Shown: positions 47,266 to 64,000 of the stretch, in pieces | Numbering within the stretch: position 1 is the stretch's first letter | Layout of the letters: the number at the start of each line of letters is the position of its first letter | Assembly: GCF_005885815.1 (NCBI RefSeq) | Contig: NZ_CP040602.1 | Span: forward strand, 1,751,630-1,815,629 | Length of the DNA: 64,000 bases | Direction: 5' to 3' | DNA from: Thiomicrorhabdus sediminis | GTDB lineage: Bacteria; Pseudomonadota; Gammaproteobacteria; Thiomicrospirales; Thiomicrospiraceae | Program-made: the position numbers and the translations under genes | Notes under the pieces: model-generated | The model's database searches: none | Seen by the model: the letters and a program-made list of their open reading frames with translations, nothing else | Told to the model about the DNA's origin: nothing

Positions 47266-48186
47266 TTACAACAATACCTTACTGCTGCCATATTGAACAG
47301 GCGGACGTGTTTCACCGTAAGTGACCACCTCGTAGGCATCCGGTTGTGACATCAAGGCACGCAGTAACTGGTTGTTTAGGGCATGACCAGATTTATGCGC
47401 GGTAAACTCACCGATAATCGGATGGCCCAGCATATACAGATCACCAACCGCATCCAGAATCTTGTGACGCACAAACTCGTCTTTATTACGCAAACCTTCA
47501 TCGTTCATCACGCCTTCGTCATCCAGACCGATAGCGTTTTTCAAGCTCGCACCCAAACCTAGGTTACGCGCTCTTAGGGTTTCCATATCCTTCATAAAAC
47601 CGAAAGTACGGGCACGGCTAACCTCTTTGAAATAGGAGGTTGCGGAAAAATCCAAGGTCATTTTCTCAGCGGTCTGCTGGAATGCAGGATGCTCGAAATC
47701 GATCGAGAAGTTCAGACGGTAACCTTCATGCGGCGCGAACTCAGCCCAACCGCCCTTATCGTTTTCAACACGCACCTTATGCAGAATGCGCACAAACTTC
47801 TTAGGCGCGCCTTGAATCTTGACTCCGGCAGACTGCAATAAAAAGATAAAGTGTGACGAGCTGCCATCCATAATCGGCACCTCATCAGAAGAAATATCGA
47901 TAAAGACATTATCGATACCGATTCCAGCCAAAGCCGACATCAAATGCTCAATGGTCGCGATTTTCACCGGCTTATCCGCCAATTTCTGCACAATCGTGGT
48001 ACATAGGGTAGTTTCACCGACGATCTCTGGAGACACCTTGAATTCGATCTGCGGATCGCAATCAACGCGACGGAAAACAATGCCGGTATTCTCAGGAGCC
48101 GGACGCAAAGTCATAACAGATTCATGGCCGGTATGCAGCCCGATACCTTTGGCTTTGATTGGGTTGGATAAGGTTCTTTGGTTCAA
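47266..48186 (-). CDS. lpxC: UDP-3-O-acyl-N-acetylglucosamine deacetylase (TTG start)
   Basis: 306 residues. LpxC is the first committed enzyme of lipid A synthesis. The zinc ligands are in TIEHLMSALAG and in the KILDAVGD element; the C-terminal histidine is in SGHALNN. The start codon is TTG at 48186, with AGAG 7 bases ahead; no ATG or GTG fits, and an upstream stop limits the frame. The N terminus (NQRTLSNPIKAKGIGLHTG) aligns with E. coli LpxC, which supports this start. A 140-base gap separates it from ftsA, where ftsZ is normally found. Confidence 0.93.
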   Translation of the reverse strand: MNQRTLSNPIKAKGIGLHTGHESVMTLRPAPENTGIVFRRVDCDPQIEFKVSPEIVGETTLCTTIVQKLADKPVKIATIEHLMSALAGIGIDNVFIDISSDEVPIMDGSSSHFIFLLQSAGVKIQGAPKKFVRILHKVRVENDKGGWAEFAPHEGYRLNFSIDFEHPAFQQTAEKMTLDFSATSYFKEVSRARTFGFMKDMETLRARNLGLGASLKNAIGLDDEGVMNDEGLRNKDEFVRHKILDAVGDLYMLGHPIIGEFTAHKSGHALNNQLLRALMSQPDAYEVVTYGETRPPVQYGSSKVLL

Positions 48187-48326
48187 GGGAAAACTCTTTT
48201 CTACTGAGCTCTGAGGCGAAATCTACAGGGAGGCTGGCCAACAAATGAGCGTTAAAATTTTATTGCCGATATTTTAACACTTTTTTGCCAGTCTATGTGA
48301 CTGACAAAATCAACTAAAAACAACGA

Positions 48327-49577
48327 TTAAAAGCTTTTATTAAACCAGGTTTTCATTCGTCCTAGCAAGCTACCAGCGCTGACACCGGGACCTTGTGGTT
48401 GAGAAAGTTCGCTAATCGCATCACCCAAGTGTTCACGAGCATGCATCAACAAGCCGACCGTTGTCGCATAAGATGGGCTGTTAACCTCATCCTTAAGCCC
48501 TTCAACTCCTTGCGGGTAACCTAAACGTACCGGCATATGGAAGACTTCTTCGGCTAATTCCACCGCACCTTCGACCAAAGAACTGCCACCGGTCAAGACA
48601 ATACCGGCCGCCAATGACTCTTCAAAACCGGCACTACGCAGCTCGGCTTGGATCAACTGGAACAGCTCTTCATAACGCGGCTCAATCACTTCAACCAGAG
48701 TACGGCGAGACAGACAACGCGCCGGGCGATCACCGACACTCGGCACTTCAATTTCTTCATCTTTGTCAATCAACTGCGGCAAAGCACAGGCGTGATTACG
48801 CTTAATCGCTTCGGCGGCCTGTGTTGGTGTACGCAAAGCCACGGCGATATCATTAGTGACTTGATCTCCAGCCACCGAAATCACCGCAGTATGGCGAATC
48901 GCACCGTTATGGAAAACCGCGATATCGGTAGTACCGCCCCCGATATCGACAAGACAGACACCAAGCTCTTTTTCATCTTCGGACAATACCGATTCGCTCG
49001 ATGCCAACTGCTCAAGAATAATATCGGCAACACCTAAACCGCAACGCTCGACACATTTAGTAATGTTTTGCGCCGCACTCACCGAACCGGTGACCATATG
49101 CACTTTGGCTTCTAGACGCACACCGGACATACCGATCGGCTCACGAATACCGCCTTGATTGTCGATAATGTATTCCTGAGACAGGATATGCAAGACACGC
49201 TGATCGCCGGGAATGGCGATGGTTTGCGCCGCATCCATAACGCGTTCGATATCTTCATGCTGAACGTCCTGGTTACGGATAGCCACCATTCCCATCGAAT
49301 TGAAACTTTTGATATGACTGCCGGCAATACCGACATAAACTGACTGGGCTTCGAAACCGGCCATACGCTCGGCTTCGTCTATGGCGCGCTGAATAGATTC
49401 AACGGTAGAGTCGATATTAACAACCACCCCTTTCTTTAAGCCTCTTGAAGGATGAGTTCCCATCCCTACTACCTCAATGCTGCCATCCGCTTTGATCTTA
49501 CCGATAATAGCCGCAATTTTTGAAGTTCCAATATCCAGTCCGACGACCATATTAGAAGAGTGCTGTTTTCGCGCCAT
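48327..49577 (-). CDS. ftsA: Cell division protein FtsA
   Basis: 416 residues of the actin-like ATPase fold. Nucleotide-binding elements are GLDIGTSKIAAIIG, the phosphate 2 loop VDIGGGTTDIAVF and VLTGGSSLVEGAV. The C-terminal amphipathic helix (GRMKTWFNKSF) that anchors Z-rings to the membrane is intact. FtsA tethers FtsZ, yet ftsZ is not the next gene: the stop is followed after 140 bases by lpxC. It lies 100 bases after ftsQ on the same strand. Confidence 0.97.
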   Translation of the reverse strand: MARKQHSSNMVVGLDIGTSKIAAIIGKIKADGSIEVVGMGTHPSRGLKKGVVVNIDSTVESIQRAIDEAERMAGFEAQSVYVGIAGSHIKSFNSMGMVAIRNQDVQHEDIERVMDAAQTIAIPGDQRVLHILSQEYIIDNQGGIREPIGMSGVRLEAKVHMVTGSVSAAQNITKCVERCGLGVADIILEQLASSESVLSEDEKELGVCLVDIGGGTTDIAVFHNGAIRHTAVISVAGDQVTNDIAVALRTPTQAAEAIKRNHACALPQLIDKDEEIEVPSVGDRPARCLSRRTLVEVIEPRYEELFQLIQAELRSAGFEESLAAGIVLTGGSSLVEGAVELAEEVFHMPVRLGYPQGVEGLKDEVNSPSYATTVGLLMHAREHLGDAISELSQPQGPGVSAGSLLGRMKTWFNKSF

Positions 49578-49678: not shown

Positions 49679-50368
49679 TTAATTTTGCGCCACTATAAAA
49701 CCATTACTATAGCGTAAATCGTAAGTCTGTGCTGAGTTTCTCATTTCAGCACTGAGCTGTGGATAAGCCTTGATAAAACGTTCGATTTTATTGGCGTAAT
49801 TCAGCTCGTCGACTTTAATGACTGCACCGCCAAGCAACTGGATTTGCCAAACATTATCTACTGAAAAACGCATTTCAGCAATCACCAAATCTAGACCGGC
49901 AAACCACTGCCGTGTCTGCATAAATTCAGTTAACACTTTTTCCGACTGATCAAGGCGCCCCTGTAGACGCACCAGATTTTCAAAACCTGCAATGCTACGC
50001 GGGAAAAACACTTCGCCATGGCGGTTGATCAATCCGGATTCACCCCAACGTGCTACCGGTTGCTGTTCACTAATGGAGATATAGAGCAGATCGGGCCACT
50101 TGCGGCGTATTTGTGCCGAATGCACCCAATCCAGACGAACGATACTGGCTTGAATTTTCTGCAACGGCAACTGCCAGAACGACTCCCCCAGATAGGGAGA
50201 AACGGCATCGGACAACTCGACATCACTCACCTGATGTAAAGGCGTCAGTAGCTCATAATGTGACACCGGTTTATAAAATGGTGATTGTTTGGCAAGCAAC
50301 AGCCACACCGCCGCCACTATAAAAAATAGCAGCGCAAACAATAAGGAAAATTGCCCAATGCGTCTCAT
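49679..50368 (-). CDS. ftsQ: Cell division protein FtsQ (POTRA-domain divisome protein)
   Basis: 229 residues. One transmembrane helix near 9-28 (LLFALLFFIVAAVWLLLA), then a POTRA domain (about 45-115, VSDVELSDAVSPYLGESFWQL and VHSAQIRRKWPDLLYISISEQQPVARW) and the FtsQ beta domain. It is a scaffold of the divisome. Eleven bases separate it from ddlB. Slightly shorter than E. coli FtsQ (276). Confidence 0.94.
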   Translation of the reverse strand: MRRIGQFSLLFALLFFIVAAVWLLLAKQSPFYKPVSHYELLTPLHQVSDVELSDAVSPYLGESFWQLPLQKIQASIVRLDWVHSAQIRRKWPDLLYISISEQQPVARWGESGLINRHGEVFFPRSIAGFENLVRLQGRLDQSEKVLTEFMQTRQWFAGLDLVIAEMRFSVDNVWQIQLLGGAVIKVDELNYANKIERFIKAYPQLSAEMRNSAQTYDLRYSNGFIVAQN

Positions 50369-50379
50369 TGCCAGTCTGA

Positions 50380-51285
50380 TTAATCCAAAGTAGTTTTTAA
50401 GATTTCGACCACAAGTTGCTCGAAACTCAAACCTTTCGCCCTGGCCGCCATCGGCACCAAACTATGGTCGGTCATCCCCGGTACGGAGTTCAGTTCGATC
50501 AACCAAGGCTGTTCGTCTTCATCCAACATCACATCAACTCGTCCCCAGGCTTTGGCACCAACGACATCGAATGCTTCCAATACCAGGTTCTGAATATCGG
50601 CAGTCAGTTCATCGTCCAGCGCACATGGGCAAATATATTGTGTGTCATTGGCCTTATACTTTGCATCAAAATCATAAAAATCGTGCGTTGTCTTTAACTC
50701 GATCAACGGCAACGCCTCATCATTCAATACTGCCGCGGTGAATTCACGACCGGTAATCCACTGTTCGATCAGAATTTCACTGTCATACTGTTGGGCGAAT
50801 GAAACGGCTTCAACCAGTTGCGGCTTATCATAGACTTTGCGCATGCCGATACTGGAACCTTCATGACAAGGTTTAACAATGACAGGAAACGGCAGATCAA
50901 AACTATCCATATCAAGCGGCATGTTTTTGGAAACCCAGACAAAACCTGGAGTCGGCAGCCCGGCTCCCATCCAAAGCCATTTGGTGCGCAGCTTATCCAT
51001 GGCAATAGCCGAAGCGGCCATATCACTGCCGGTATAAGGCAGGCCCAAATCGCTCAATACCGATTGCACACCACCGTCTTCACCCCAGCGACCGTGCAGA
51101 GCGATAAAGGCACGATCATAATCTTGCGCAATACGGCACAGATCGGCAACACTATCGACATCTTCGGATACGGCATCAATCCCTTGATCCAATAAGGCTT
51201 GAGTGACCGCCTGTCCGCTTCTTAGAGAGACTTCTCGTTCGGCGGCTTTACCGCCCATTAATACTGCAACCTTGCCAAAATCCAT
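50380..51285 (-). CDS. ddlB: D-alanine-D-alanine ligase B
   Basis: 301 residues from the ATG at 51285 with GGAG six bases upstream; a TTG four codons earlier is not favoured. ATP-grasp enzyme joining two D-Ala. Elements include VLMGGKAAEREVSLRSG, HGRWGEDGGVQ, KPCHEGSSIGM and WLIELNSVPGMT. It follows murC by 14 bases and precedes ftsQ, the E. coli order murC-ddlB-ftsQ-ftsA. Confidence 0.96.
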   Translation of the reverse strand: MDFGKVAVLMGGKAAEREVSLRSGQAVTQALLDQGIDAVSEDVDSVADLCRIAQDYDRAFIALHGRWGEDGGVQSVLSDLGLPYTGSDMAASAIAMDKLRTKWLWMGAGLPTPGFVWVSKNMPLDMDSFDLPFPVIVKPCHEGSSIGMRKVYDKPQLVEAVSFAQQYDSEILIEQWITGREFTAAVLNDEALPLIELKTTHDFYDFDAKYKANDTQYICPCALDDELTADIQNLVLEAFDVVGAKAWGRVDVMLDEDEQPWLIELNSVPGMTDHSLVPMAARAKGLSFEQLVVEILKTTLD

Positions 51286-51299
51286 CAATCTCTCCAATC

Positions 51300-52697
51300 C
51301 TAATTTGTCTCGGTCAAAGCCTTGGATTCACTCCATTGTCTGGCCAATTGACCGACATCACCAGCCCCCATAACCAAGACAACATCATCATCCTGTAAAA
51401 CATCCGTCGCCAATTGTTCTAATTGCGCGAAATCTTCGGCAAAGAAACCATGCCCACCACGGACACGCAACGCCTGTAACAGGGCTTTCGAATCAAAGCT
51501 CGGCAGATGTGGCTCCCCCGCGGCATAGACTTCCAATAACACCACCATGTCCGGCCCGGTCAAGGACTGAACAAACTCATCGAACAGATCGCGGGTACGC
51601 GTGTAACGGTGCGGCTGGAAGACTAAAATCAGGCGCTTGTTCGGGAACGCTTCCTTAGCGGTTGCAATCGTTGCCTGTAATTCGGTTGGGTGATGACCGT
51701 AATCATCTACCATGGTGACATTATGACCGGCTATTTGCCTGTTGTCATAAACCTCGAAACGACGGCCAACACCGCCAAACTCTTTCAATGCCTGCTGAAT
51801 CGCGGCAATCGGCACATCCAATTGCAAGCCGACCGCAATCGCTGCCAAGGCATTTTGCACATTATGCTTACCTGGCAAGTTTAACTCTACGGCAAAACTC
51901 TTATCGCGCCCGACTAAAACCTGAAACTGCATTTTCAAGCCTTTTGCCTGAACATCAATGGCACGGATATCGGCGTTTTCAGAGAAACCGTAAGTCGTGG
52001 TTTTACGTGTCAATTTAGGCAAAATGTGACACACATTGTCATCGTCTATACACATAATCGCCATACCGTAAAACGGCAAACGGTTAATAAATTCAATAAA
52101 GGTGTTTTCCAATATCTGATAATCGCCTTGATAAGTATCCATATGATCTTCATCAATATTGGTTACTACCGACATCATTGGCGACAAATGCAGGAAGGAA
52201 GCATCCGATTCATCGGCTTCGGCCACCAGATAGTTACTGGATCCCAAACGGGCGTTGGTGCCCACTTGATTGAGCTTTCCGCCAATCACAAACGTCGGAT
52301 CAAGCTCACCATGAGTCAATACCGCCGCGGTTAGACTGGTAGTCGTAGTTTTACCGTGAGTACCGGCGATGGCGATACCAAAACGCATACGCATCAATTC
52401 GGCCAACATTTCCGCTCTTGGAATGACCGGAACCCGCGCTTCGCGTGCCCAGTTGACCTCGGGATTGTCTTTACCGATTGCGGTGGAAACCACCACCACA
52501 TCGGTATTTTTCACATGTTCGGCATTATGACCTAGCTGAATCAAAGCACCAAGCGATTCAAGGCGGGCAACCGTAGGGTTATGCTTGATATCCGAACCGC
52601 TTACGGTATACCCCAAGTTCAGACAGACTTCAGCGATACCGGCCATACCTACACCACCGATACCGACAAAATGGATTTGTTTTACCTGTTCTTTCAT
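51300..52697 (-). CDS. murC: UDP-N-acetylmuramate-L-alanine ligase
   Basis: 465 residues. Mur ligase three-domain protein: the N-terminal HFVGIGGVGMAGIAEV, the ATP site AGTHGKTTTTSLTAAVL, and VDDYGHHPTE. It adds L-alanine to UDP-MurNAc. It begins the visible dcw block; murG, which precedes it in E. coli and Pseudomonas, is absent. The 224 bases upstream show no gene, and the next gene is an unknown 115-residue protein. Confidence 0.96.
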   Translation of the reverse strand: MKEQVKQIHFVGIGGVGMAGIAEVCLNLGYTVSGSDIKHNPTVARLESLGALIQLGHNAEHVKNTDVVVVSTAIGKDNPEVNWAREARVPVIPRAEMLAELMRMRFGIAIAGTHGKTTTTSLTAAVLTHGELDPTFVIGGKLNQVGTNARLGSSNYLVAEADESDASFLHLSPMMSVVTNIDEDHMDTYQGDYQILENTFIEFINRLPFYGMAIMCIDDDNVCHILPKLTRKTTTYGFSENADIRAIDVQAKGLKMQFQVLVGRDKSFAVELNLPGKHNVQNALAAIAVGLQLDVPIAAIQQALKEFGGVGRRFEVYDNRQIAGHNVTMVDDYGHHPTELQATIATAKEAFPNKRLILVFQPHRYTRTRDLFDEFVQSLTGPDMVVLLEVYAAGEPHLPSFDSKALLQALRVRGGHGFFAEDFAQLEQLATDVLQDDDVVLVMGAGDVGQLARQWSESKALTETN

Positions 52698-52921: not shown

Positions 52922-53269
52922 TTACTGCAGTGAAACGGGCTCTTGCTTATGCTCTTCATTTTCTTCAATTTTTTCAAAAGGTTCCTTGACCGGTCTTGGC
53001 ACCACCCAGAAAAACTGCGCCAGAATTGCCGCCAGTTCCGTGGTCTTTTTCAAGGGTTCGGTAATTTCAATACTTGAACCCAACTGGCTTTCAACATGTC
53101 CGGTTTGCTTGGCCTGCTCAATCATCTGCCAAATCACCTCATCCGCTCCTTCCAGCAAGCCTTCATCCGGATTCCACCAGGCCATCATCGTGTCAAAGCG
53201 ATCTTCAAAGTTAGCCAATGGAATCAATTCCAACTGAATCCAGTGCAAAGGTGTTTTCTCTTCACTCAT
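52922..53269 (-). CDS. Hypothetical soluble protein, 115 residues
   Basis: No family recognised. It is acidic, without signal or membrane helix. It opens MSEEKTPLHWIQLELIPLANFEDRFDTMMAWWNPDEG and ends in a Glu/Lys-rich tail. Several tryptophans (WIQ, AWWN, FFWVV) sit in otherwise helical sequence. It lies between murC and the suf operon, 160 bases after sufS, but the suf terminator is between them, so it is probably transcribed from its own promoter. Whether it belongs with cell-wall genes or Fe-S assembly cannot be told. Confidence 0.65.
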   Translation of the reverse strand: MSEEKTPLHWIQLELIPLANFEDRFDTMMAWWNPDEGLLEGADEVIWQMIEQAKQTGHVESQLGSSIEITEPLKKTTELAAILAQFFWVVPRPVKEPFEKIEENEEHKQEPVSLQ

Positions 53270-53373
53270 TACCCTATCCTTTTTCTCTGCATTTAAACTA
53301 TCTCATACAGCCCGGGGCAACTCAATGCGATTGGCGATTAATTTTTTATGCTGATACACAAAACCGCTTAAAT

Positions 53374-53399
53374 AAAAAAAGCGACCGAAGTCGCTTTTA
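53374..53399 (-). terminator. Terminator of the sufBCDS operon
   Basis: On the minus strand AGCGAC-TTCG-GTCGCT followed by a T7 run; the UUCG-type tetraloop makes it very stable. The stem on plus coordinates is 53380-53395. It sits 31 bases after the sufS stop. Confidence 0.92.
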
Positions 53400-53429
53400 T
53401 CCAATTTACCGCGGCTGGCTTTAGCGCAA

Positions 53430-54656
53430 TTAAAGCAGCATATCTTTCGCTTCTTCAATCGCACTGACTAAACGGTCAATGTCCGCTTTATTATTGTAAA
53501 CCCCTAAAGAGGCTCGCACCGTGGCAGGCACATTGAAATGCTGCATGACCGGCATCGCGCAGTGATGACTGGCGCGCACCGCAATGCCGTCCTGATCCAT
53601 CAAAGTCGCCATATCATGCGGATGAACGCCTTCAATAATAAAGGAGATGACCCCGCCTTTATTTTTAGCCTGGCCGATAATCTGCAAACCGTCGATCCGA
53701 CTCAAGCTCTCCGTTGCATAAGCTAACAGCTCATGTTCGAAACCAGCAACCTGCTCCATACCAATAGCCGTTAAAAAATCGATTGCGGCCCCAAGCCCGA
53801 TGGCTCCGGAAATATTTGGCGTACCTGCCTCAAACTTATAAGGCAAGACATTATATTCGGTCTTTTCAAAGGTCACCGAATAGATCATGTCTCCACCGCC
53901 TTGATAAGGCGGCATTGCTTCCAATAAGGTTTCTTTGGCATAAAGCACACCAATACCGGTTGGACCATACATCTTATGCCCGGAAAGTGCATAAAAATCA
54001 CAACCAATATCGGCAACATCTATCGCCATGTGGGCACACGCTTGTGCACCGTCAACCAACATTTTCGCACCTACCGAATGGGCGATTTCCGTCATTTCCT
54101 TGACCGGGTTAATGGTTCCCAGTGCATTCGACATATGGGTTGCGGCAACCAGTTTGGTTTTTTCCGAAACCATACCTTGCAGAGCACCTAAACAGATCTC
54201 GCCCTGATTGTTCATGCGCAACACATTCAAACGAATACCGAGCTGATCACGCAACAACTGCCAAGGCACAATATTGGAATGATGTTCCATTTCGGTGACA
54301 ATAATTTCATCACCTTCTTTTAGATTTTCACGCGCCCAACTCTGTGCCACTAAGTTAATCGCCTCGGTGGTGCCGCGAACAAACACCACCTCTTTGGTCG
54401 AGGCGGCATTTATGAATTGACGCACCTTTTCACGAGCACCTTCATATTTCTCGGTGGCGCGTTCACTCAGACCATAAACACCGCGATGTACATTGGCGTT
54501 TTCTTGACGGTAATAACGTGCTAAAGCATCAATCACCATCTGCGGTTTTTGCGAAGTCGCACCATTATCCAAATAGACTAATGGGTGCCCATTTTCCTGC
54601 TGGTTGAGAATCGGGAATTGTGCTCGGATATCAGCAAAATTTTGCGTTGCAGCCAT
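53430..54656 (-). CDS. sufS: Cysteine desulfurase SufS
   Basis: 408 residues, PLP-dependent. The PLP lysine is in ALSGHKMYGPTGIGVLY and the active cysteine in RASHHCAMPVM near residue 365. It supplies sulfur to SufBCD. It lies 27 bases after sufD in the order sufB-sufC-sufD-sufS. No sufE or sufU partner follows. IscS is missing from the iscR-iscA locus, so this may be the main desulfurase for clusters; that cannot be checked from this window alone. Confidence 0.96.
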   Translation of the reverse strand: MAATQNFADIRAQFPILNQQENGHPLVYLDNGATSQKPQMVIDALARYYRQENANVHRGVYGLSERATEKYEGAREKVRQFINAASTKEVVFVRGTTEAINLVAQSWARENLKEGDEIIVTEMEHHSNIVPWQLLRDQLGIRLNVLRMNNQGEICLGALQGMVSEKTKLVAATHMSNALGTINPVKEMTEIAHSVGAKMLVDGAQACAHMAIDVADIGCDFYALSGHKMYGPTGIGVLYAKETLLEAMPPYQGGGDMIYSVTFEKTEYNVLPYKFEAGTPNISGAIGLGAAIDFLTAIGMEQVAGFEHELLAYATESLSRIDGLQIIGQAKNKGGVISFIIEGVHPHDMATLMDQDGIAVRASHHCAMPVMQHFNVPATVRASLGVYNNKADIDRLVSAIEEAKDMLL

Positions 54657-54683
54657 GTTTATATCAGTCCAATTAAAACGCTA

Positions 54684-56015
54684 TTAAGCTTGTTGCACGG
54701 AATTTAATGCTTTTGACAGACACTCGGTCGCCCAAAAACGAATCGCATCATTGGCAATGGTTTCACATGGTTCCAATAAGAACGCATGGGTAATCATATT
54801 GATCGCATCTTGGCGACGAATACCACGTGCCTGCAGATAGAAAATCTGATTTTCATCAATCTGACCGGAAGCCGAACCATGAGAACACTTCACATCATCA
54901 GCGTAGATTTCCAACTGAGGCTTGGTATCCATTTTTGCACTATCAGACAATAACAAGTTTTTGTTATCCATCTGACCATCGGTCTTCTGTGCTTTTTGGT
55001 CAACACGGATCATACCGTTAAAGACACCTGTTGCCTTGCCCGACAACACATATTTATGCAACTGGCGGCTAATGCCATTTGTATCGTTATGTTCGGTATT
55101 GGTACGTGAGTCAACAGTTTGACTGGCCGTTGCCAGACAAGCACTGTTCTGATTGTTTTCGATGTGATCGCCATTCATAGTCAAATAGTTCTGCTGACGA
55201 GAAATCGCAGATCCCACTGAGGCAAAGAAACTATTGAACTGGCTACCTGCCTGCTGATCGATGAACTGGTTATTGAAGTAATAACTGGCTTCACTTTGAT
55301 CCTGCAAAATCACTTGATGCACTCTGGCATACTTGGCAACGAAAATTTCTGTCAACACATTGGTACAGGCACTGTCATCGACGTTGTCTAATAGGCTTAC
55401 AAAGCGCTCAACCACAGTCACTTCGGCATTTTCACCGACTTCTATTCGATTACGGATATTGCCCAGATTATTGTTCGCCGTCTGCACATTCATAATGTAA
55501 AACGGCATGGTAATCTGGGTATTGGCATCAACATTGAGCGCAAAACCATCGGCCAGCAATGCGCTATTCAACAGACCAAACGGCTCTTTATTGATTTTTT
55601 CCTGATTGGTAAACAACTTATCCGCATTGCTGTTTAACTCTTCCCCGTCTCTAAACAGCTCAAATTGAACCCCATCAGGTAAAGCTTGCAGATTATCCGA
55701 CAAGGCCTCATTGAACCAGCCATCAACAAACACCAAGACAATCGCCGCAAAGCTAGGCATAAACGGACGAATATCATCGCTAGTCAAAGGTTGAGCCGGC
55801 TTTAATTCAAAGTGCTTCTGAACAAAACCGGTCAAACGTGTATATTGCCAGTCTTCATCACGCTGCGTCGGGAAACCTTGCTTTGCAAACAGTTGACTCG
55901 CTTGCTCTCGAATTTGTACAACTTGTGGATTACTGCAACTGGCGTTCAATTGTTTCGCTTGATTCAAATAATGATCAACGGCTTTCTGTGCGACAGGTGA
56001 AATTTTTCTTTGCAT
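54684..56015 (-). CDS. sufD: Fe-S cluster assembly protein SufD
   Basis: 443 residues. The parallel beta-helix core and the C-terminal element CSHGSASGQIDENQIFYLQARGI are typical of SufB/SufD. With SufB and SufC it forms the scaffold on which clusters are built. The DVKCSHG histidine/cysteine pocket is conserved. It lies between sufC and sufS. Confidence 0.93.
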   Translation of the reverse strand: MQRKISPVAQKAVDHYLNQAKQLNASCSNPQVVQIREQASQLFAKQGFPTQRDEDWQYTRLTGFVQKHFELKPAQPLTSDDIRPFMPSFAAIVLVFVDGWFNEALSDNLQALPDGVQFELFRDGEELNSNADKLFTNQEKINKEPFGLLNSALLADGFALNVDANTQITMPFYIMNVQTANNNLGNIRNRIEVGENAEVTVVERFVSLLDNVDDSACTNVLTEIFVAKYARVHQVILQDQSEASYYFNNQFIDQQAGSQFNSFFASVGSAISRQQNYLTMNGDHIENNQNSACLATASQTVDSRTNTEHNDTNGISRQLHKYVLSGKATGVFNGMIRVDQKAQKTDGQMDNKNLLLSDSAKMDTKPQLEIYADDVKCSHGSASGQIDENQIFYLQARGIRRQDAINMITHAFLLEPCETIANDAIRFWATECLSKALNSVQQA

Positions 56016-56074
56016 CTAATAGTTCGCTTCTATCGATTAGGATGAATTTGTTTCTTAGTCAAACACGTCTATGA

Positions 56075-56827
56075 TTAAGAGTGTGCTTGAATAATCTCGT
56101 CATAGCCGTTTTCTTCCAGCTCATGAACCAGTTCAAAACCACCTGATTTGACGATTTTTCCGTTGTACAACACATGCACATGATCAGGCTTGATGTAATC
56201 CAATAAACGCTGGTAGTGAGTGACCACTATAAAGCTACGCTTATCGTCACGTAAGGCATTAACCCCATTGGCGACGACTTTAAGTGCATCGATATCCAAA
56301 CCGGAATCGGTCTCATCCAAAATGCATAGTTTCGGTTCAAGTAGAGCCATCTGGAAAATATCATTACGTTTTTTCTCACCACCGGAGAAGCCGACATTAA
56401 CCGAACGCTCAAGAAGGTCGGCACGCATATTTAGCAGTTCGATCTTGCTTTGTGCAAACTCATCAAAATCAAACATATCCAAGGCCGGTTCGCCACGTTC
56501 TTCACGAATCGCATTGACCGCAGTCTGCATAAACAGTTTGTTGCTCACACCTGGAATCTCAACCGGATATTGAAATGCCAAGAACAGACCTTTACGGGCA
56601 CGATCCTCAGGATCCATATCCAGCAGATCTTCACCATCAAAGGTGACAGTTCCCTCGGTTACTTCATAGTCATCTCGTCCAGACAAAACATTCGCCAAGG
56701 TACTTTTACCCGCTCCGTTTGGTCCCATAATGGCGTGAACTTCGCCAGGATTGACTTCGATATTCAATCCTTTGAGGATCTGTTTATCATCAATTTCTGC
56801 TTGTAGATTATCGACTTTAAGTAACAT
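56075..56827 (-). CDS. sufC: Fe-S assembly ATPase SufC
   Basis: 250 residues, an ABC-type ATPase. Walker A GPNGAGKSTLANVLSG, the SufC-type signature FSGGEKKRNDIFQMALLEPK, Walker B LCILDETDSGLD. It powers structural changes in SufBCD. It is preceded by sufB (57 bases) and followed by sufD. Confidence 0.97.
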   Translation of the reverse strand: MLLKVDNLQAEIDDKQILKGLNIEVNPGEVHAIMGPNGAGKSTLANVLSGRDDYEVTEGTVTFDGEDLLDMDPEDRARKGLFLAFQYPVEIPGVSNKLFMQTAVNAIREERGEPALDMFDFDEFAQSKIELLNMRADLLERSVNVGFSGGEKKRNDIFQMALLEPKLCILDETDSGLDIDALKVVANGVNALRDDKRSFIVVTHYQRLLDYIKPDHVHVLYNGKIVKSGGFELVHELEENGYDEIIQAHS

Positions 56828-56884
56828 GGTTTTCTTTCACTAATAAGGTTGCAATATTTAATTTGGACTCTGGTTGATTCGGTT

Positions 56885-58399
56885 TTAACCTACCGAACCT
56901 TCCAGACTGATGGCTAACAGCTCTTCGGCTTCTTGAGCAAATTCAAGAGGCAGCTCACTGAACACCTCTTTACAGAAACCATTTACAATCATTGAAATGG
57001 CGTCCTGCTCACTGATTCCGCGTTGCTGACAGTAGAACAACTGATCTTCACCGATACGGGAAGTGGTCGCCTCATGCTCAACTTGAGCAGTTGGATTCTC
57101 CACTTCGATATATGGGAATGTATGGGCTCCGCACTGATCGCCAATCAACATGGAGTCACACTGGGTAAAGTTTCGTGCACCTTCGGCGGTTGGCAGGATT
57201 TTTACCAGACCGCGATAGGTGTTATCACTTTTACCTGCCGAAAGACCTTTGGAGATAATGGTACTGCGCGTGTTTTTACCGATATGAATCATTTTGGTAC
57301 CCGTATCGGCCTGCTGACGACGATTAGTCAAAGCAACCGAATAGAATTCACCAATCGAGTTATCACCCTTTAACACACAACTTGGGTATTTCCAGGTGAT
57401 CGCTGATCCGGTTTCGGCCTGAGTCCATGACAATTTCGAATTACGCCCTTCGCAGACACCACGTTTGGTAACGAAGTTTAAGATACCGCCTTCACAGTCA
57501 TCATCACCCGGGTACCAGTTTTGTACGGTTGAGTATTTTACCTCGGCATCATCCAAAACGATGACCTCAACTACCGCTGCATGCAACTGGTAACTGTCAC
57601 GAACCGGTGCAGAACAGCCTTCGATATAACTGACATAGCTGTTTTTATCGGCAATCAGAATGGTACGCTCGAACTGGCCGGTCTTCGCTTCATTAATACG
57701 GAAGTAAGTAGATAGGTCAATCGGGCAACGCACGCCTTCGGGGATATAAACAAAGGTACCGTCCGATGCCACTGCCGAGTTCAATGCGGCAAAGTAGTTG
57801 TCATGGTAAGGCACAACAGTACCCAGATATTTTTGCACCAATTCAGGATAATCCTGAACGGCTTCCGAGAACGAACAGAAAATAATACCTAGCTTAGACA
57901 GGTCTTCACGTTTAGTGGTTGAGATAGAAACCGAGTCAAAGATGGCATCGACCGCGATATTCGCTTCATCTCCTGCAATCGGTACCCCCAGACTGGCAAA
58001 AGCCTTGGCTACTTCTGGATCGATTTGCTCTTCAACACCTGAGTCTGTTTCACAACTTCCGGCGCAAGAACCGCACTCAGGTGCGGAATAATAACTATAG
58101 TCCTGATAGTCCAGAGGCGTATATTCGGCTTTGGCCCAATGGGGCTCTTCCATGGTCTGCCAATGCTTGAATGCTTTTAAACGAAACTCAAGCATCCATT
58201 CAGGTTCGTTCTTTTTCGCCGAAATGGCGCGCACGACATCCTCGTTCAATCCACGTTCAAATGTCTCAACCGAGGTAGTGGTAACAAAACCTTCTTTATA
58301 GTGTTTGTTTTTCGCCAGAAGGCTGTCAATTTCTTCGTATTGACTTGTCTGCATCGCGCCTTCAGGAACCAATTCTGTAATTTTTGCTGCTTCAGCCAT
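56885..58399 (-). CDS. sufB: Fe-S cluster scaffold protein SufB
   Basis: 504 residues. The N-terminal cysteine-rich segment [12 protein letters not shown] and the core [22 protein letters not shown] are typical. The C-terminal [16 protein letters not shown] carries the conserved Glu and His region. It is the first gene of sufBCDS. There is no sufA or IscR-like gene directly before it; the IscA of the window is at 16.5 kb. Confidence 0.96.
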
Positions 58400-58422
58400 C
58401 TTGATAAAATTGCCTAATATTA

Positions 58423-58451
58423 ATATCTGAGTATTTTAGTTGGTTATTCAA
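58423..58451 (-). promoter_or_regulatory. Candidate sufB promoter
   Basis: On the minus strand TTGAAT (58451-58446) and AGATAT (58428-58423), 17 bases apart, 24 bases before the sufB start. The AT-rich imperfect dyad CTAATATTAATATCTGAGTATTTTAG region around it might be an IscR-type site, but it is far less regular than the iscR palindrome. Confidence 0.35.
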
Positions 58452-58526
58452 AAAAAGTCCATGCGGATCACATAAAAATCCTAATGCCGACCACGACAAA
58501 AAATTACATTAAGTAGAATTATCACC

Positions 58527-59306
58527 TCAATAACGCGCGGCCTTAATCAATTGCTCGAACCACTCATCATTAAGCTCAAACCCATAGATTTTTAGATAAT
58601 TCTCTGGTTCCGTTTGATCCGCCGCAAAACTATCCAAGCGACAAGCACTGCCTTCTAAACGTACACGATTGGCGTACTCCAAAGTATTAAGATTCGCAGT
58701 GACACGCAATATCGGCATGGTCAAACTATGGCGTGAATTATCCAAAGCCATCAGCAAGTGGTCGAACACCATCTGAGAAACATCAAACCGCAAACACTGC
58801 AGTTGCTGCCCAACCCAAGGGTGGCTTAACTGCTTTTGAGCGTTTTGCTTTTTACTAAAAGTCGTCAAGATATCCTGCGGCCACTGCTGGTTCATCACCC
58901 TAACAATCGGTAGAGCATTCAGGCCATGTTTTTTTAGCCATGAGCTCCACTCTGCCTGCAATGTCAGATCGCTTTGTTCTGTGAAGTTGAAGACGATACT
59001 ATCGGCTCCCTGCAGCTGGGCAAGCAGCAAGCTTTCCAAACCTGGCAACCAGCATAACGCCTGCGGCGAGCTGCGCACATCGATCACACAGGCATGGTGC
59101 ACATCGTCCTGTACAACAGGGAAATCGACGATACCATTGTCAACAAAAGACCAGCTATAAAGCCCCGGCTTATCTACTGATTCCGCGAGCTGCAAAGAAG
59201 CCGTTGGCATATCGACAAACTGTAGCTGCCAGGTCGATAATAACCTCGATATTCCGCAACCGGGCAAACCGGTCAATACCACTTTTAAATTACCTGCGTT
59301 TTGCAT
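58527..59306 (-). CDS. Degenerate COG0523-like P-loop protein next to zinc-uptake genes
   Basis: 259 residues. The N terminus (LKVVLTGLPGCGIS, loop at 13-20) looks like the COG0523 (CobW/ZigA) GTPase P-loop, but the essential lysine of GxxGxGKT is replaced by isoleucine. The G4 position NKxD is replaced by NFTEQSDL after the helix LLLAQLQGADSIVF, and no zinc CxCC motif is seen. It lies 41 bases after znuA on the same strand. It may be a pseudo-GTPase partner of the zinc transporter. Other assignments are possible, so the family link is tentative. Confidence 0.45.
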   Translation of the reverse strand: MQNAGNLKVVLTGLPGCGISRLLSTWQLQFVDMPTASLQLAESVDKPGLYSWSFVDNGIVDFPVVQDDVHHACVIDVRSSPQALCWLPGLESLLLAQLQGADSIVFNFTEQSDLTLQAEWSSWLKKHGLNALPIVRVMNQQWPQDILTTFSKKQNAQKQLSHPWVGQQLQCLRFDVSQMVFDHLLMALDNSRHSLTMPILRVTANLNTLEYANRVRLEGSACRLDSFAADQTEPENYLKIYGFELNDEWFEQLIKAARY

Positions 59307-59347
59307 AGCTTTCTTTCAGACTCTACTTCTAGGCCATCCTGCAATTT

Positions 59348-60373
59348 CTATGGCTGCAAACACTTGAACACTTCATGCGCCAAGCTGTGATAAAGCTTCT
59401 CATAGCCAACAAACCCCTTATCACTGCTCTGTCGTGAAGTCGACTGCCCCGCTGATCCGACACCTAAAGGATCGGCAACGCCGATTTTGACATCGGTACC
59501 ACGAGTGACCGCTTGAATACGTCTTTCGGGAAACTGTGGCTCTTTAAAGACACATACCACCTCTTTGGCAAGCACCTTATTGCGCAATTCATAAACACGA
59601 CGAATACTTGGCGCAATGCTTGGGTTTAACTGGATCGAACCGACCGCATTTAAACCATAATGCTTTTCAAAATATTGAAACGCATCATGCAGAACCAGAT
59701 AAGGCCGTGACTTAACCGCCGACAACATTTCCTGAACCTGTTTATCCAAGGCTTGCAAAGCTTGCACAAACTTGGCTTCACGAGTGGCAATCTGTTGTTT
59801 TTTGTATGGCGCCAACCGCTGCAGTTCCCGACTGACAACCTTGACCAATTGCACCGCATTATCAAGCTCCAGCCAAAGATGACCGTCGACTACCAAATCC
59901 TTGTGCTCCGCATGACTACCTTGGCCATGCTCATGATCGTGCCCTGCCTGCCAGGCGCCGCCCTCTCGAACCGGCAGACGCTTAATGTCCTTCAAGTTGG
60001 CAAACTGGACAACAGGCGCATAAATACTGAATAAAGATTTATTTAACCAAGCATCGATACCGGCACCGTTCATCACCACCAATTCAGATTGATGCAATGC
60101 TTTGAGGTGAGAAGGTTTGAGCTGAAAACCGTGCGGGCTGCTACTGGCATTGAGCAATAACTGCAAACTGTCGTTTTCATCCAACAAAGGTTCAATCAAA
60201 CCTGCCAAAGGCGCAATACTTACCGTGACGATAACGCCTTTCTTGGTTGGCGATTGTGCATAAGCGCTCTGGCTTACCGCCAAGGCCAACATTGCCCATA
60301 GAAAAACTCTAGCGAATTTGCTCGCTTTTGATGCGAAGCGGTAATTAAATTTTAGTAAATTTGTTATTATCAT
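59348..60373 (-). CDS. znuA: Zinc ABC transporter periplasmic binding protein ZnuA
   Basis: 341 residues from the ATG at 60373, with a long signal sequence ending AYA. Cluster A-I fold: HGFQLKPSHLKALHQSELVVMNG (zinc histidine), a short His-rich loop HDHEHGQGSHAEH near 145, HLWLELDN, and VLHDAFQYFEKHYGLN. It binds zinc for ZnuBC. The 29-base gap to znuC means promoter elements overlap the coding ends. The degenerate P-loop gene follows. A GTG six codons upstream is an alternative start. Confidence 0.9.
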   Translation of the reverse strand: MIITNLLKFNYRFASKASKFARVFLWAMLALAVSQSAYAQSPTKKGVIVTVSIAPLAGLIEPLLDENDSLQLLLNASSSPHGFQLKPSHLKALHQSELVVMNGAGIDAWLNKSLFSIYAPVVQFANLKDIKRLPVREGGAWQAGHDHEHGQGSHAEHKDLVVDGHLWLELDNAVQLVKVVSRELQRLAPYKKQQIATREAKFVQALQALDKQVQEMLSAVKSRPYLVLHDAFQYFEKHYGLNAVGSIQLNPSIAPSIRRVYELRNKVLAKEVVCVFKEPQFPERRIQAVTRGTDVKIGVADPLGVGSAGQSTSRQSSDKGFVGYEKLYHSLAHEVFKCLQP

Positions 60374-60402
60374 CTTTATTTCATGTTCCACTAAGGCTTA
60401 GC

Positions 60403-61332
60403 GTGCAAAACCACAGCTCAATGACTCCTGTCGATAACCTATCCACAGCAGATTCAATCCTGATTGAAGCGCAAAACATTAACCACCGTTTTGCCGACAA
60501 TCTGGTACTGCAAAACATCTCTTTGCAGATCCTACCCAAACAGATTGTCACCCTAATCGGCCCAAACGGTGCCGGTAAATCAACACTGTTAAAGATTCTA
60601 CTCGGCTTGATCAAGCCTAGCGAAGGCAAGATTCGCCGTGCTGAAAATCTTCGCATCGGTTTTATGCCGCAAAAAATCCAGGTCGATCCGACTCTACCAA
60701 TGAGTGTTAAACGCTTTTTGCAACTTGGTTTAAACCGTCATCACCCAACCAATCACAAAGCCGCATTGGCAAAAGGCAGAAAACCTTTATTCAAACGCTT
60801 AGTTGAGCGCCTGTTTTTCAGGGCTCGCTATGATAACACATTGATTAATAAAACCATTGAAGAACTGGATATTGGCCATCTGCTAAACCAACCGATCCAA
60901 AAAGTGTCCGGCGGGGAAATGCAACGTATTTTGTTGGCGCGCGCGCTAATCAGACAACCGGACCTATTGGTATTGGATGAACCGGTTCAAGGGGTTGATT
61001 TGCAGGGGCAGACCGAAATCTATCAATACATCAATAAAATTCGTCATGAATATGGCTGCGGCATCTTGATGGTCAGCCACGATTTGCATATCGTCATGAG
61101 CCATACCGACCAAGTCTTGTGCTTAAACCAGCATCTCTGCTGTACCGGCCACCCGCAAAGCGTCAGCCAAAGCCCTGAGTTCCAGGCGTTATTCGGCGAA
61201 ATGGCCGATGAAATCGCCATCTACGAACACCATCACGACCACTCTCAATGCCAGCACACTCATGGTGAACATCATCAAGAAAGCGCCAATGAAGAAAAAC
61301 TGACCCTCAATAACCACAAGGAGGTTAAATAA
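60403..61332 (+). CDS. znuC: Zinc ABC transporter ATPase ZnuC with a His-rich C-terminal tail
   Basis: 309 residues from GTG 60403, which has AAGG six bases before it; ATG 60421 is an alternative. Walker A IGPNGAGKSTLLKILLG, signature VSGGEMQRILLARAL, Walker B LLVLDEPVQGVD. The last about 35 residues hold a cluster (EHHHDHSQCQHTHGEHH) typical of zinc-binding tails. Its stop overlaps the znuB ATG. Confidence 0.93.
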   Translation: MQNHSSMTPVDNLSTADSILIEAQNINHRFADNLVLQNISLQILPKQIVTLIGPNGAGKSTLLKILLGLIKPSEGKIRRAENLRIGFMPQKIQVDPTLPMSVKRFLQLGLNRHHPTNHKAALAKGRKPLFKRLVERLFFRARYDNTLINKTIEELDIGHLLNQPIQKVSGGEMQRILLARALIRQPDLLVLDEPVQGVDLQGQTEIYQYINKIRHEYGCGILMVSHDLHIVMSHTDQVLCLNQHLCCTGHPQSVSQSPEFQALFGEMADEIAIYEHHHDHSQCQHTHGEHHQESANEEKLTLNNHKEVK

Positions 61333-62132
61333 TGTTATTTGATCTTCCACAATTTATTTGGCTGGCACTGTTAGGCGGTCTCGGCTTAGCTTTAATTTCG
61401 GCACCTTTGGGCGTTTTTATGGTGTGGCAACGTCAATCCTACTTCGGTGCGACTCTGGCGCATTCCGCACTGCTGGGCATTAGCCTTGGCCTGTTTTTCA
61501 GCATCGATTTAACCCTAAGTGTGATTATCACCTCAATACTGGTGGCCACGCTGATTTTTGCTCTAGGCCAATATCGCCAGCTTTCCACCGACACGCTACT
61601 GGGAATTATGGCACACAGCAGCTTGGCGCTAGGCTTGGTGTTTATCAGCCTGCAAAGTAGTGTGCAAATTGATTTAATGAGTTACCTGTTCGGCGACATC
61701 CTGGCGGTGACACCACTGGATTTATGGTTGATTCTGCTCACCAGTGTATTGATTCTGTTTTTCCATATCCGCCATTGGGACAATCTATTAAACATTACTC
61801 TTAACCCGGAATTGGCCAGAGCTGAAGGTATCAAGGTCAAGCGGGTACAATTCGAATTCGCACTGTTGCTCGCGTTTATGATTGCCCTTTCAATGAAAAT
61901 TGTCGGCGTCCTGCTGGTAACGTCTTTATTGATTATTCCTGCCGCGGCGGCAAGAAAACTGGCGCAATCACCGGAAACCATGCTGTTTACCAGCATGCTG
62001 TTCGGTAGCTTGTCGATTCTTGCAGGCTTGGCTTTATCTTTTCAATTTGACCTCCCCACCGGTCCGGCGATCGTGCTGATGGCAACACTCATCTTTCTTG
62101 CTCTGCAATTAAAACCTAACACAGAAAAATAG
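61332..62132 (+). CDS. znuB: Zinc ABC transporter permease ZnuB
   Basis: 266 residues with seven or eight predicted transmembrane helices. The ABC-3 family coupling region GIMAHSSLALGLVFISLQ and ARAEGIKVKRVQFEF are visible. Its ATG overlaps the znuC stop by one base (TAATG), showing coupled translation. It is followed by a bidirectional terminator before folA. Confidence 0.93.
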   Translation: MLFDLPQFIWLALLGGLGLALISAPLGVFMVWQRQSYFGATLAHSALLGISLGLFFSIDLTLSVIITSILVATLIFALGQYRQLSTDTLLGIMAHSSLALGLVFISLQSSVQIDLMSYLFGDILAVTPLDLWLILLTSVLILFFHIRHWDNLLNITLNPELARAEGIKVKRVQFEFALLLAFMIALSMKIVGVLLVTSLLIIPAAAARKLAQSPETMLFTSMLFGSLSILAGLALSFQFDLPTGPAIVLMATLIFLALQLKPNTEK

Positions 62133-62171
62133 TGCTGAGCGGTTTATAGACTGAATGCCTAATATGGAAAC

Positions 62172-62206
62172 AAAAAAGCCTTAGGCCATTTAACCTAAGG
62201 CTTTTT
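62172..62206. terminator. Bidirectional terminator between znuB and folA
   Basis: GCCTTAGG (62178-62185) and CCTAAGGC (62194-62201) form a perfect stem between A6 and T6 runs. Confidence 0.92.
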
Positions 62207-62236
62207 TGATGATCTGGGCAAAGAAACCTGAAGCGA

Positions 62237-62749
62237 TCAAGCCGCCCTTTCAAGGGTGATAAAATCGAAGGCATATTGATGACGTGCATCAATTGGATGA
62301 TGCTCTCTGGAAACTTCGAACCACTCCCCCTCTTGCTGCCAATCCGGGAAAAAGGTATCACCGTCAATATCAGCGTCAATCAAGGTCAGGTATAGGCGTT
62401 CAGCCTGCTCCATCATTTGAGAATATAATTGACCGCCCCCCATAATAACCACTTCATCCGGATTGTCGGCCTTAACAGCTTGTAACGCCTTTTCTACCGA
62501 ATCGAAGACCGGTACGGAATAATTCAGGTCGGTCTGTCTGGAAATCACATAATTGGGTCTTCCCGGCAGTGGACGACAGCCCAGAGATTCAAAGGTTTTT
62601 CGTCCCATAATCACTGGCTTGCCTAAGGTGTTTTTCTTAAAAAACTGCAAATCATCAGGCAGATGCCAAGGCATATCGTTATCTTTGCCGATGACACGAT
62701 TGGTCGTCATCGCAGCAATCATTGATATTCTCATTTGACTTTCATTCAT
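62237..62749 (-). CDS. folA: Dihydrofolate reductase
   Basis: 170 residues from the ATG at 62749. Active site elements: [32 protein letters not shown] with the catalytic aspartate. It regenerates tetrahydrofolate after thymidylate synthesis. The ATG overlaps the thyA stop (ATGA), so translation is coupled to thyA. A second in-frame ATG at 62734 (MRISMIAAM) matches the usual N terminus and could also be the start. Confidence 0.95.
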
Positions 62750-63579
62750 ACCGACACCTGCGCTTTGATATGCGGGTGTGATTCATAGTCCACTATTTCA
62801 AAATCTTCAAACTTATAATCAAAAATCGATTCCGGCTTGCGCTTAATGACCAACTTCGGCAAAGGATAAGGCTCGCGGCTGATCTGCTCTTTGGCCTGCT
62901 CGATAGTATTGTTATACAGATGCACATCACCGCCGGTCCAGACAAACTCGCCCACTTCATAGCCGGTTTGCTGAGCAATCATGTGCAATAGCAATGCATA
63001 GCTGGCAATATTGAACGGCACCCCTAGAAAAGTATCGGCGCTACGCTGGTATAGCTGACAAGAAACACGATTATTGGCCACATAGAACTGGAAAAACGCA
63101 TGACAGGTCGCTAACGCCATCTGCCCATTTTCAACATTCTGTTGCGGACTGATCGACTCATCCGGCAGGTCAGACGGGTTCCATGCGGTGACGATCATGC
63201 GACGACTGTTCGGGTTGTTCTTCAGAGTTTCGACCACTTCGGCAATCTGATTGATGGTACTACCGTCCGGGTTCTGCCAAGCGACCCATTGCTTACCGTA
63301 TAGAGGCCCTAAATCACCGGACTCGGTCGCCCATTCATCCCAGATACGCACGCCATTGTCTTTTAGGTATTTGATATTGGTATCACCACTCAAAAACCAC
63401 AATAGCTCATGCACAATAGAGCGGATATGCAATTTTTTGGTGGTGACTAACGGAAAACCTTGTTGCAAGTCAAAACGCATCTGGTAACCAAATACTGAAC
63501 GGGTACCGGTACCGGTTCTATCACCTTTATCGGTACCATTCTGCAAAATATGCTGCAAAAGATCTAGATACTGTCTCAT
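62746..63579 (-). CDS. thyA: Thymidylate synthase
   Basis: 277 residues. The nucleophile cysteine is in [13 protein letters not shown], and the folate and phosphate-binding elements [23 protein letters not shown] and [13 protein letters not shown] are intact. A short insertion ([12 protein letters not shown]) precedes the active site. It makes dTMP from dUMP. Order lgt-thyA-folA; lgt-thyA is a common pairing. Confidence 0.97.
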
Positions 63580-63647
63580 ATGCTGTTTTGTCTCATGTTA
63601 ATTTTAAAATCGATCTTGTTTTGCCTAGGCGCCATAGCGCTGATAGT

Positions 63648-64000
63648 TCAAGGTTTAACGGCACTGCATTTTTTGCCGTACCACCATAAAAGCACACCGG
63701 CAATTATCATCGGCATTGAGAGAATCTGCCCCATAGTCAGCCAATTCCAAGCCAGATAACCTAGCTGCGGATCAGGCACCCGCCAGAACTCTACGATAAA
63801 TCGGAAGACGCCATAGCCGATTAAAAATAGCGCCGCCACAGCACCCGGCGTTCTTGGCTTGGCACTGAACCACGCCAATACAAGCAGTAATACCATTCCT
63901 TCCAAAAAAGCTTCCAATAACTGCGTTGGATATTTCTGCACTGTTTGCATTAACAGCGGATCGTATACCCACATACCTAAAGGCGAATCGGTCAGCTTGC
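63648..64000 (-). CDS. lgt: Prolipoprotein diacylglyceryl transferase, C-terminal end (partial, runs off the right edge)
   Basis: The last about 117 codons of the minus-strand gene. Frame is open to the window edge (KLTDSPLGMWVYDP). C-terminal Lgt features: YPTQLLEAFLEG, RTPGAVAALFLIGYGVFRFIVEFWRVPDPQLG and the final membrane helix. It attaches diacylglycerol to the lipobox cysteine of lipoproteins such as BamB. thyA starts 68 bases after its stop. Confidence 0.9.
   Translation of the reverse strand, partial: KLTDSPLGMWVYDPLLMQTVQKYPTQLLEAFLEGMVLLLVLAWFSAKPRTPGAVAALFLIGYGVFRFIVEFWRVPDPQLGYLAWNWLTMGQILSMPMIIAGVLLWWYGKKCSAVKP

Follow-up and report, generated by a model that had tools for sequence, protein, structure and literature searches.

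ftsZ stands third in the dcw cluster, behind mraZ and rsmH, throughout the order of Thiomicrorhabdus sediminis, with similar relocations elsewhere

The closest described systems are dcw clusters regulated by MraZ. In other bacteria MraZ binds GTG repeats at the mraZ promoter, and the parts of PMC7761207 on which we draw describe the site as four copies of the repeat, one every ten bases, directly downstream of the -10 box. The same parts state that MraZ of Escherichia coli represses the genes from mraZ to murC, with ftsZ outside that range, and that in Burkholderia cenocepacia a canonical 15-gene operon, ftsZ included, is read from one MraZ-regulated promoter (PMC7761207). For Neisseria elongata, excerpts of PMC9395523 have MraZ altering the first five to seven dcw genes. 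By the E. coli and Neisseria accounts, as far as these excerpts go, a gene in third place lies inside the MraZ zone and a gene placed after ftsA lies outside it. In Mycoplasma genitalium, where the cluster reads mraZ-mraW-MG_223-ftsZ, loss of mraZ left ftsZ mRNA higher by a log2 value of 2.34 and FtsZ protein up about 25-fold, according to portions of PMC8475190, which also state that no apparent phenotype has been reported for loss of mraZ in E. coli.

We analysed a stretch of 64,000 nucleotides from Thiomicrorhabdus sediminis (G000:C1:1751630-1815629), hereafter the window, in which ftsA is followed by lpxC with no ftsZ between them. In window coordinates, ftsA occupies 48327..49577 on the minus strand (416 aa; PF14450 and PF02491 by Pfam) and lpxC occupies 47266..48186 on the same strand (306 aa, TTG start; PF03331, 343 bits). 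A first-pass annotation had described both genes as intact and 140 bp apart, with the membrane anchor of FtsA kept and no ftsZ remnant in the gap. These descriptions hold: the coordinates and Pfam agree on the two genes, the C-terminal tail of FtsA, GSLLGRMKTWFNKSF, reads as a probable amphipathic helix, and a whole-genome family search returned no Tubulin/FtsZ match at the junction (48187..48326). The 140-bp gap is what remained after ftsZ had departed, and its length varies from 16 to 331 bp among 23 Thiomicrospiraceae loci. Many Thiomicrospiraceae gaps carry, by eye, a motif of the form TGNTARAAT, represented here by the extended -10-like sequence TGTTAAAAT (48271..48279, minus strand), a putative element that could serve as the promoter of lpxC. 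A generic promoter scan of the ftsA-lpxC region stayed at chance level and did not report this motif.

Upstream of ftsA on the minus strand lie ftsQ (49679..50368), ddlB (50380..51297) and murC (51300..52697), the last of which starts the 3' half of a split dcw cluster. We named ddlB and murC from their positions and their matches in relatives, and ftsQ from its position and the match of its translation to the ORF between ddlB and ftsA of relatives. murB is absent between murC and ddlB (window 51297-51300) and is not in the dcw cluster. Positions 52922..64000 belong to a 15-kb stretch that separates murC from murG, which itself falls outside the window, and hold a suf operon (53430-58399; SufBD, an ABC ATPase and a class-V aminotransferase by Pfam) and a znuA-like gene (59348-60391).

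The genome is a single contig of 2,373,486 bases, 99.99% complete, and contains one match to the Tubulin/FtsZ family, G000:C1:1830523-1830987(-). The match lies in a single-copy, full-length ftsZ (G000:C1:1829848-1831041, corresponding to L003:14848-16041, minus strand), whose intact reading frame encodes 397 aa from an ATG preceded by aagggga. Its upstream neighbour, on the same strand, is rsmH, also called mraW (L003:16106-17077), and its downstream neighbour is ftsL (L003:14438-14785). The gene precedes ftsA by 28.6 kb in the same orientation and belongs to the same dcw cluster; it lies about 14 kb past the right end of the window, so a reader of the window could not have seen it. The 5' half of the cluster runs rnpB, mraZ, rsmH, ftsZ, ftsL, ftsI, murE, murF, mraY, murD, ftsW, murG. 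After murG comes the 15-kb stretch, with, among others, genes for an SDR protein and a chemoreceptor, lgt, the suf operon and the znuA-like gene, and then murC, ddlB, ftsQ, ftsA and lpxC; the dcw names in L003, and those of the SDR gene, the chemoreceptor gene and lgt, were assigned by reading translations. ftsZ does not directly follow ftsA, as it does in a canonical dcw cluster, and the remaining genes keep their usual order, split here after murG. The first-pass annotation had called ftsZ missing, and that claim fails: loss is ruled out by the intact single copy between rsmH and ftsL. The junction is real, and one of the annotation's two alternatives, that ftsZ has moved, is what the genome-wide search found, except that the gene did not go to an unrelated place; it stands third behind mraZ and rsmH, in the same cluster and orientation.

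The relocation of ftsZ within the dcw cluster is stable and common to the whole order, and it is echoed elsewhere. Our sample of the order comprises 62 genomes, all of one family and spread over seven genera. ftsZ was detected in 60 of them. In each of the 60, rsmH is its immediate upstream neighbour, on one contig and one strand with it, and 87-225 bp separate the matched domains. The two genomes without a detected ftsZ are drafts, one also without rsmH (G007) and the other with rsmH at a contig end (G074). Named family records, which include Thiomicrorhabdus, Hydrogenovibrio, Thiomicrospira and Sulfurivirga, have rsmH as the gene upstream of ftsZ in 38 of 39 cases, the other record being cut off. 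At the vacated junction, lpxC adjoins ftsA in 34 of 35 family ftsA loci, and the exception is a short locus of a genome that has no lpxC match (G003). The comparison with related sulfur oxidisers that the annotation had proposed gives the same junction. Its argument that the gap is not a recent decay in place holds, and the order-wide uniformity excludes an assembly deletion. In one genome rsmH was matched as two overlapping pieces (G018:C1:529908-530821), reflecting a frameshift or a sequencing error.

Two loci from two other genera, L301 (G071) and L302 (G058), have a compact cluster whose genes, as far as they were read, follow the canonical order except for ftsZ, with murG and murC adjacent. 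In their genera ftsZ and ftsA are 13.0-13.6 kb apart (three genomes, one contig and strand), compared with 27.7-58.5 kb in genera g1, g3 and g6 (likewise on one contig and strand); in genus g5 the two halves of the cluster lie apart or in another order. Because ftsZ is already displaced where the cluster is still compact, and because of these distances, it seems that ftsZ moved before the cluster came apart between murG and murC.

FtsZ of this genome matches PF00091 (147 bits) and PF12327 (117 bits) by Pfam and ends in the C-terminal peptide YLDIPAFLRRQAD, which aligns with the tail of the PDB FtsZ chain 8h1o_A. The conserved C-terminal peptide of FtsZ binds FtsA and ZipA. FtsZ probably still docks on FtsA through this conserved tail, which makes an ordinary division machinery likely. 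The suggestion that the machinery might differ finds no sign in the two proteins examined: FtsZ is full-length and keeps YLDIPAFLRRQAD, and FtsA keeps its tail. Two short deletions run through all 97 family FtsZ rows (53 distinct proteins), one of three residues ahead of the loop GLGAG and one of two residues after KPFxFE; we take them to flank loops T3 and T5. A longer FtsZ, of 457-477 aa, occurs in a subgroup of the genus (L110, L112, L113, L198, L204 and L210), and three of these loci (L198, L204 and L210) have a divergent MraZ, 41-43% identical to that of this genome.

We consider it probable that the native ftsZ moved once, from between ftsA and lpxC to third place behind an mraZ promoter with MraZ-type boxes. 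In the common ancestor of the order, the single native gene would have moved to the interval between rsmH and ftsL; ftsA and lpxC would have closed up after its departure, and the gap often still holds what may be a separate promoter for lpxC. Transcription of ftsZ would then start at the mraZ promoter, with ftsZ third in that operon, and the dose of FtsZ would be set by MraZ through that promoter. A relocation that carried with it a change in the control of ftsZ is plausible. The annotation had expected relocation to break the coupled regulation of the cluster; this is partly right, as ftsZ has lost its coupling to ftsQA, but from where it now lies it seems to have gained one to the mraZ promoter.

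A predicted promoter upstream of mraZ matches TTGACA-17-TATAGT (11/12 consensus) and is followed by four AGTGG repeats with a 10-bp period. With one mismatch allowed, the tripled AGTGG pattern occurs twice in 19 kb and in none of 200 shuffles. Judged by sequence, mraZ would head an operon that has tandem GTG repeats of 10-nt period after its -10 box. AGTGG repeats lie upstream of mraZ in all 19 family loci compared, and TTGACA in 17 of the 19. A scan of 318 loci, many of which end short of the mraZ upstream region, found a similar box pattern in 77, of which 75 are of the family and the other two are L298 and L300; the family loci L100 and L186 gave no exact match to the pattern. The remaining promoter-like sites across mraZ-ftsL are at chance level, and one promoter-like site (9/12 consensus) lies within rsmH and, as a possible promoter of ftsZ, counts against control from the mraZ promoter.

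An 11-pair hairpin is found just 3' of the ftsZ stop (L003:14817-14845). In the family, the 75 bases after this stop have a median folding z of -2.0 relative to shuffles (18/36 below -2), compared with medians of -0.13 to 0.26 for the stretches after rsmH, mraZ, ftsA, ftsI and murE. We rejected the idea that the hairpin separates ftsZ from ftsL, because canonical relatives fold there too (median z -1.18; 12/35 below -2; p 0.13 versus the family); the folding looks like a feature that accompanies ftsZ. By eye, most of these stretches have no run of T, and they may overlap ftsL.

The position of ftsZ might instead have changed by chance and carry no regulatory meaning, the gene being read from long dcw transcripts anyway, an account that we regard as unlikely. 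It can draw on B. cenocepacia, where, according to the parts of PMC7761207 used here, a single promoter serves the entire canonical cluster. A move of ftsZ need not, then, have changed its regulator, and control of third-place ftsZ by MraZ is therefore an inference from sequence. The family's cluster also came apart later at the murG-murC boundary, and other lineages include some with a broken cluster as well. Against a chance shuffle, the new order persists in 60/60 genomes and seven genera despite cluster breaks in several, and in three other families, f89, f38 and f32, ftsZ likewise came to lie at the promoter end or close to it.

Outside the family, ftsA is the next gene upstream of ftsZ in 72 of 78 class loci, while three loci are cut by contig ends and three are relocated; these 78 loci combine 18 from the search of relatives, the 30 best class-search matches and 30 weak, score-chosen ones, and are not a random draw. 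ftsZ and rsmH share a contig in 97 of the 125 class genomes for which both are listed. Their spacing is the canonical 10-22 kb in 85 of the 97 and within 6 kb in seven (four of this family, two of f89 and one of f38); four genomes have them farther apart and one has them on different strands. In all three genomes of f89 (G149, G255 and G340) rnpB is followed by a box array with TATAGTGG and then by ftsZ, mraZ and rsmH, with ftsZ at L298:6759-7976, L299:7899-9159 and L319:5874-7109. FtsZ of L298 and L299 carries neither of the family's deletions, and FtsZ of L298 falls inside the gamma group of an 87-row quick tree, so the f89 move is independent. Family f38 (two genomes, 1.1 Mb) has ftsZ between ftsI and murE (L300:7214-11612 and L321:5681-10052), and family f32 (one genome, 0.9 Mb) has it before rsmH (L320:5050-6955), where neither mraZ nor MraZ boxes were found at the one ftsZ locus. 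All three moves are toward the promoter end.

A wider reading, which we put forward tentatively and as somewhat short of probable, is that several lineages of Gammaproteobacteria independently brought ftsZ to the front of the dcw cluster, under the control of MraZ: to third place in this order, between the boxes and mraZ in f89, after ftsI in f38 and before rsmH in f32. If true, this would amount to a separate type of regulation, with the dose of FtsZ set by MraZ and not by ftsQA-region promoters. The move may also have freed the split between murG and murC; as ftsZ lies far from rsmH in G100, G226 and G219 too, we offer this idea only as a suggestion.

It is quite improbable, in our judgement, that the original ftsZ was lost and that a foreign gene, from a betaproteobacterium or an unsampled source, was inserted between rsmH and ftsL. 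The shortening before GLGAG, by at least three residues, joins the 97 family rows to 41 betaproteobacterial-type rows, L282 and L291, and is absent from 117 other FtsZ rows. Four of 11 columns that are diagnostic between the family and gammas, the deletion included, have the betaproteobacterial state, and a joint clade of the family and betaproteobacteria was not rejected by an AU test on 46 hand-picked rows (p 0.445). The family FtsZ is nevertheless closer to Gammaproteobacteria than to betaproteobacteria (median core identity 62.9% versus 58.2%), which makes a betaproteobacterial origin less likely as far as sequence identity goes. The betaproteobacterial rows do not share the family's two-residue deletion, 37 of 41 being of full length after KPFxFE and four being without one residue; nor is that deletion private to the family, as the two residues are missing from L289, L295 and L297 too. 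Among the non-family matches listed (54-63% identical; 369 class genomes), none presents itself as a donor.

The trees and the companion genes complete the comparison. The family occupies an open fork outside the 38-row main gamma group (support 92) in the 87-row quick FtsZ tree, and stands beside the gammas with weak support (57/52) in a careful tree of 46 rows; in a quick FtsA tree, one group (support 90, not starred) holds the family and 35 of the 38 gamma rows. Identity between the family and gammas, compared with that between gammas, is 62.9% versus 72.3% for FtsZ, 63.2% versus 65.2% for FtsA and 54.9% versus 66.3% for LpxC. The FtsZ and FtsA values suggested an acceleration specific to FtsZ after the move, an idea weakened by LpxC, which shows the same excess divergence; the divergence is therefore not special to FtsZ. 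Together, the trees, the identities and LpxC lead us to prefer a moved native gene over a replacement. A record titled Thermoflexus hugenholtzii (L154, a MAG) has a dcw FtsZ with the betaproteobacterial short loop and is possibly a mislabelled or mixed bin.

That the assembly dropped ftsZ from the ftsA-lpxC junction, or that the gene is truly lost, has a vanishingly small probability: nothing beyond the gap itself speaks for either, and both are rejected by the one intact ftsZ found elsewhere in a genome of a single contig and by the same order in every scorable relative.

An order-wide move of ftsZ, the best-known gene of the dcw cluster, with the cluster otherwise unchanged and with similar moves elsewhere, amounts to a natural experiment. 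It bears on why dcw gene order is conserved and on the purpose that MraZ serves, both of them open questions. It predicts that in these organisms, in contrast to E. coli, MraZ matters for the FtsZ level and for the size of the cells. None of the papers listed by our literature searches deals with where ftsZ lies in these bacteria; Megrian and others reportedly surveyed dcw clusters in 2022, and that survey may mention it.

Compared with the canonical dcw cluster of E. coli and Pseudomonas, the cluster has the same genes, on the same strand and with the others in the same relative order (L301, L302). It differs in that ftsZ is third, after rsmH, rather than between ftsA and lpxC, and in this genome it is also split between murG and murC. 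The AGTGG array resembles the MraZ site described in the consulted parts of PMC7761207 in the number of copies, their period and their place after the -10 box. B. cenocepacia, on the evidence of those parts, shares with this cluster an ftsZ downstream of an MraZ-regulated promoter, which here is predicted, and a site after the -10 box, there made of four seven-base repeats with three-base spacers; its operon runs from mraZ to ftsZ with ftsZ last, whereas here ftsZ is third. In Neisseriaceae, as excerpted from PMC9395523, MraZ acts on promoter-proximal genes (the first five, up to seven), but ftsZ stays with murC, ddl, ftsQ and ftsA outside the MraZ zone, and here it would lie inside. The cluster of M. 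genitalium, in the portions of PMC8475190 cited above, also has ftsZ close behind mraZ-mraW, and repression of ftsZ by MraZ is known there; that cluster is reduced to four genes, whereas the present one retains the rest of the dcw genes, ftsZ being the only one displaced.
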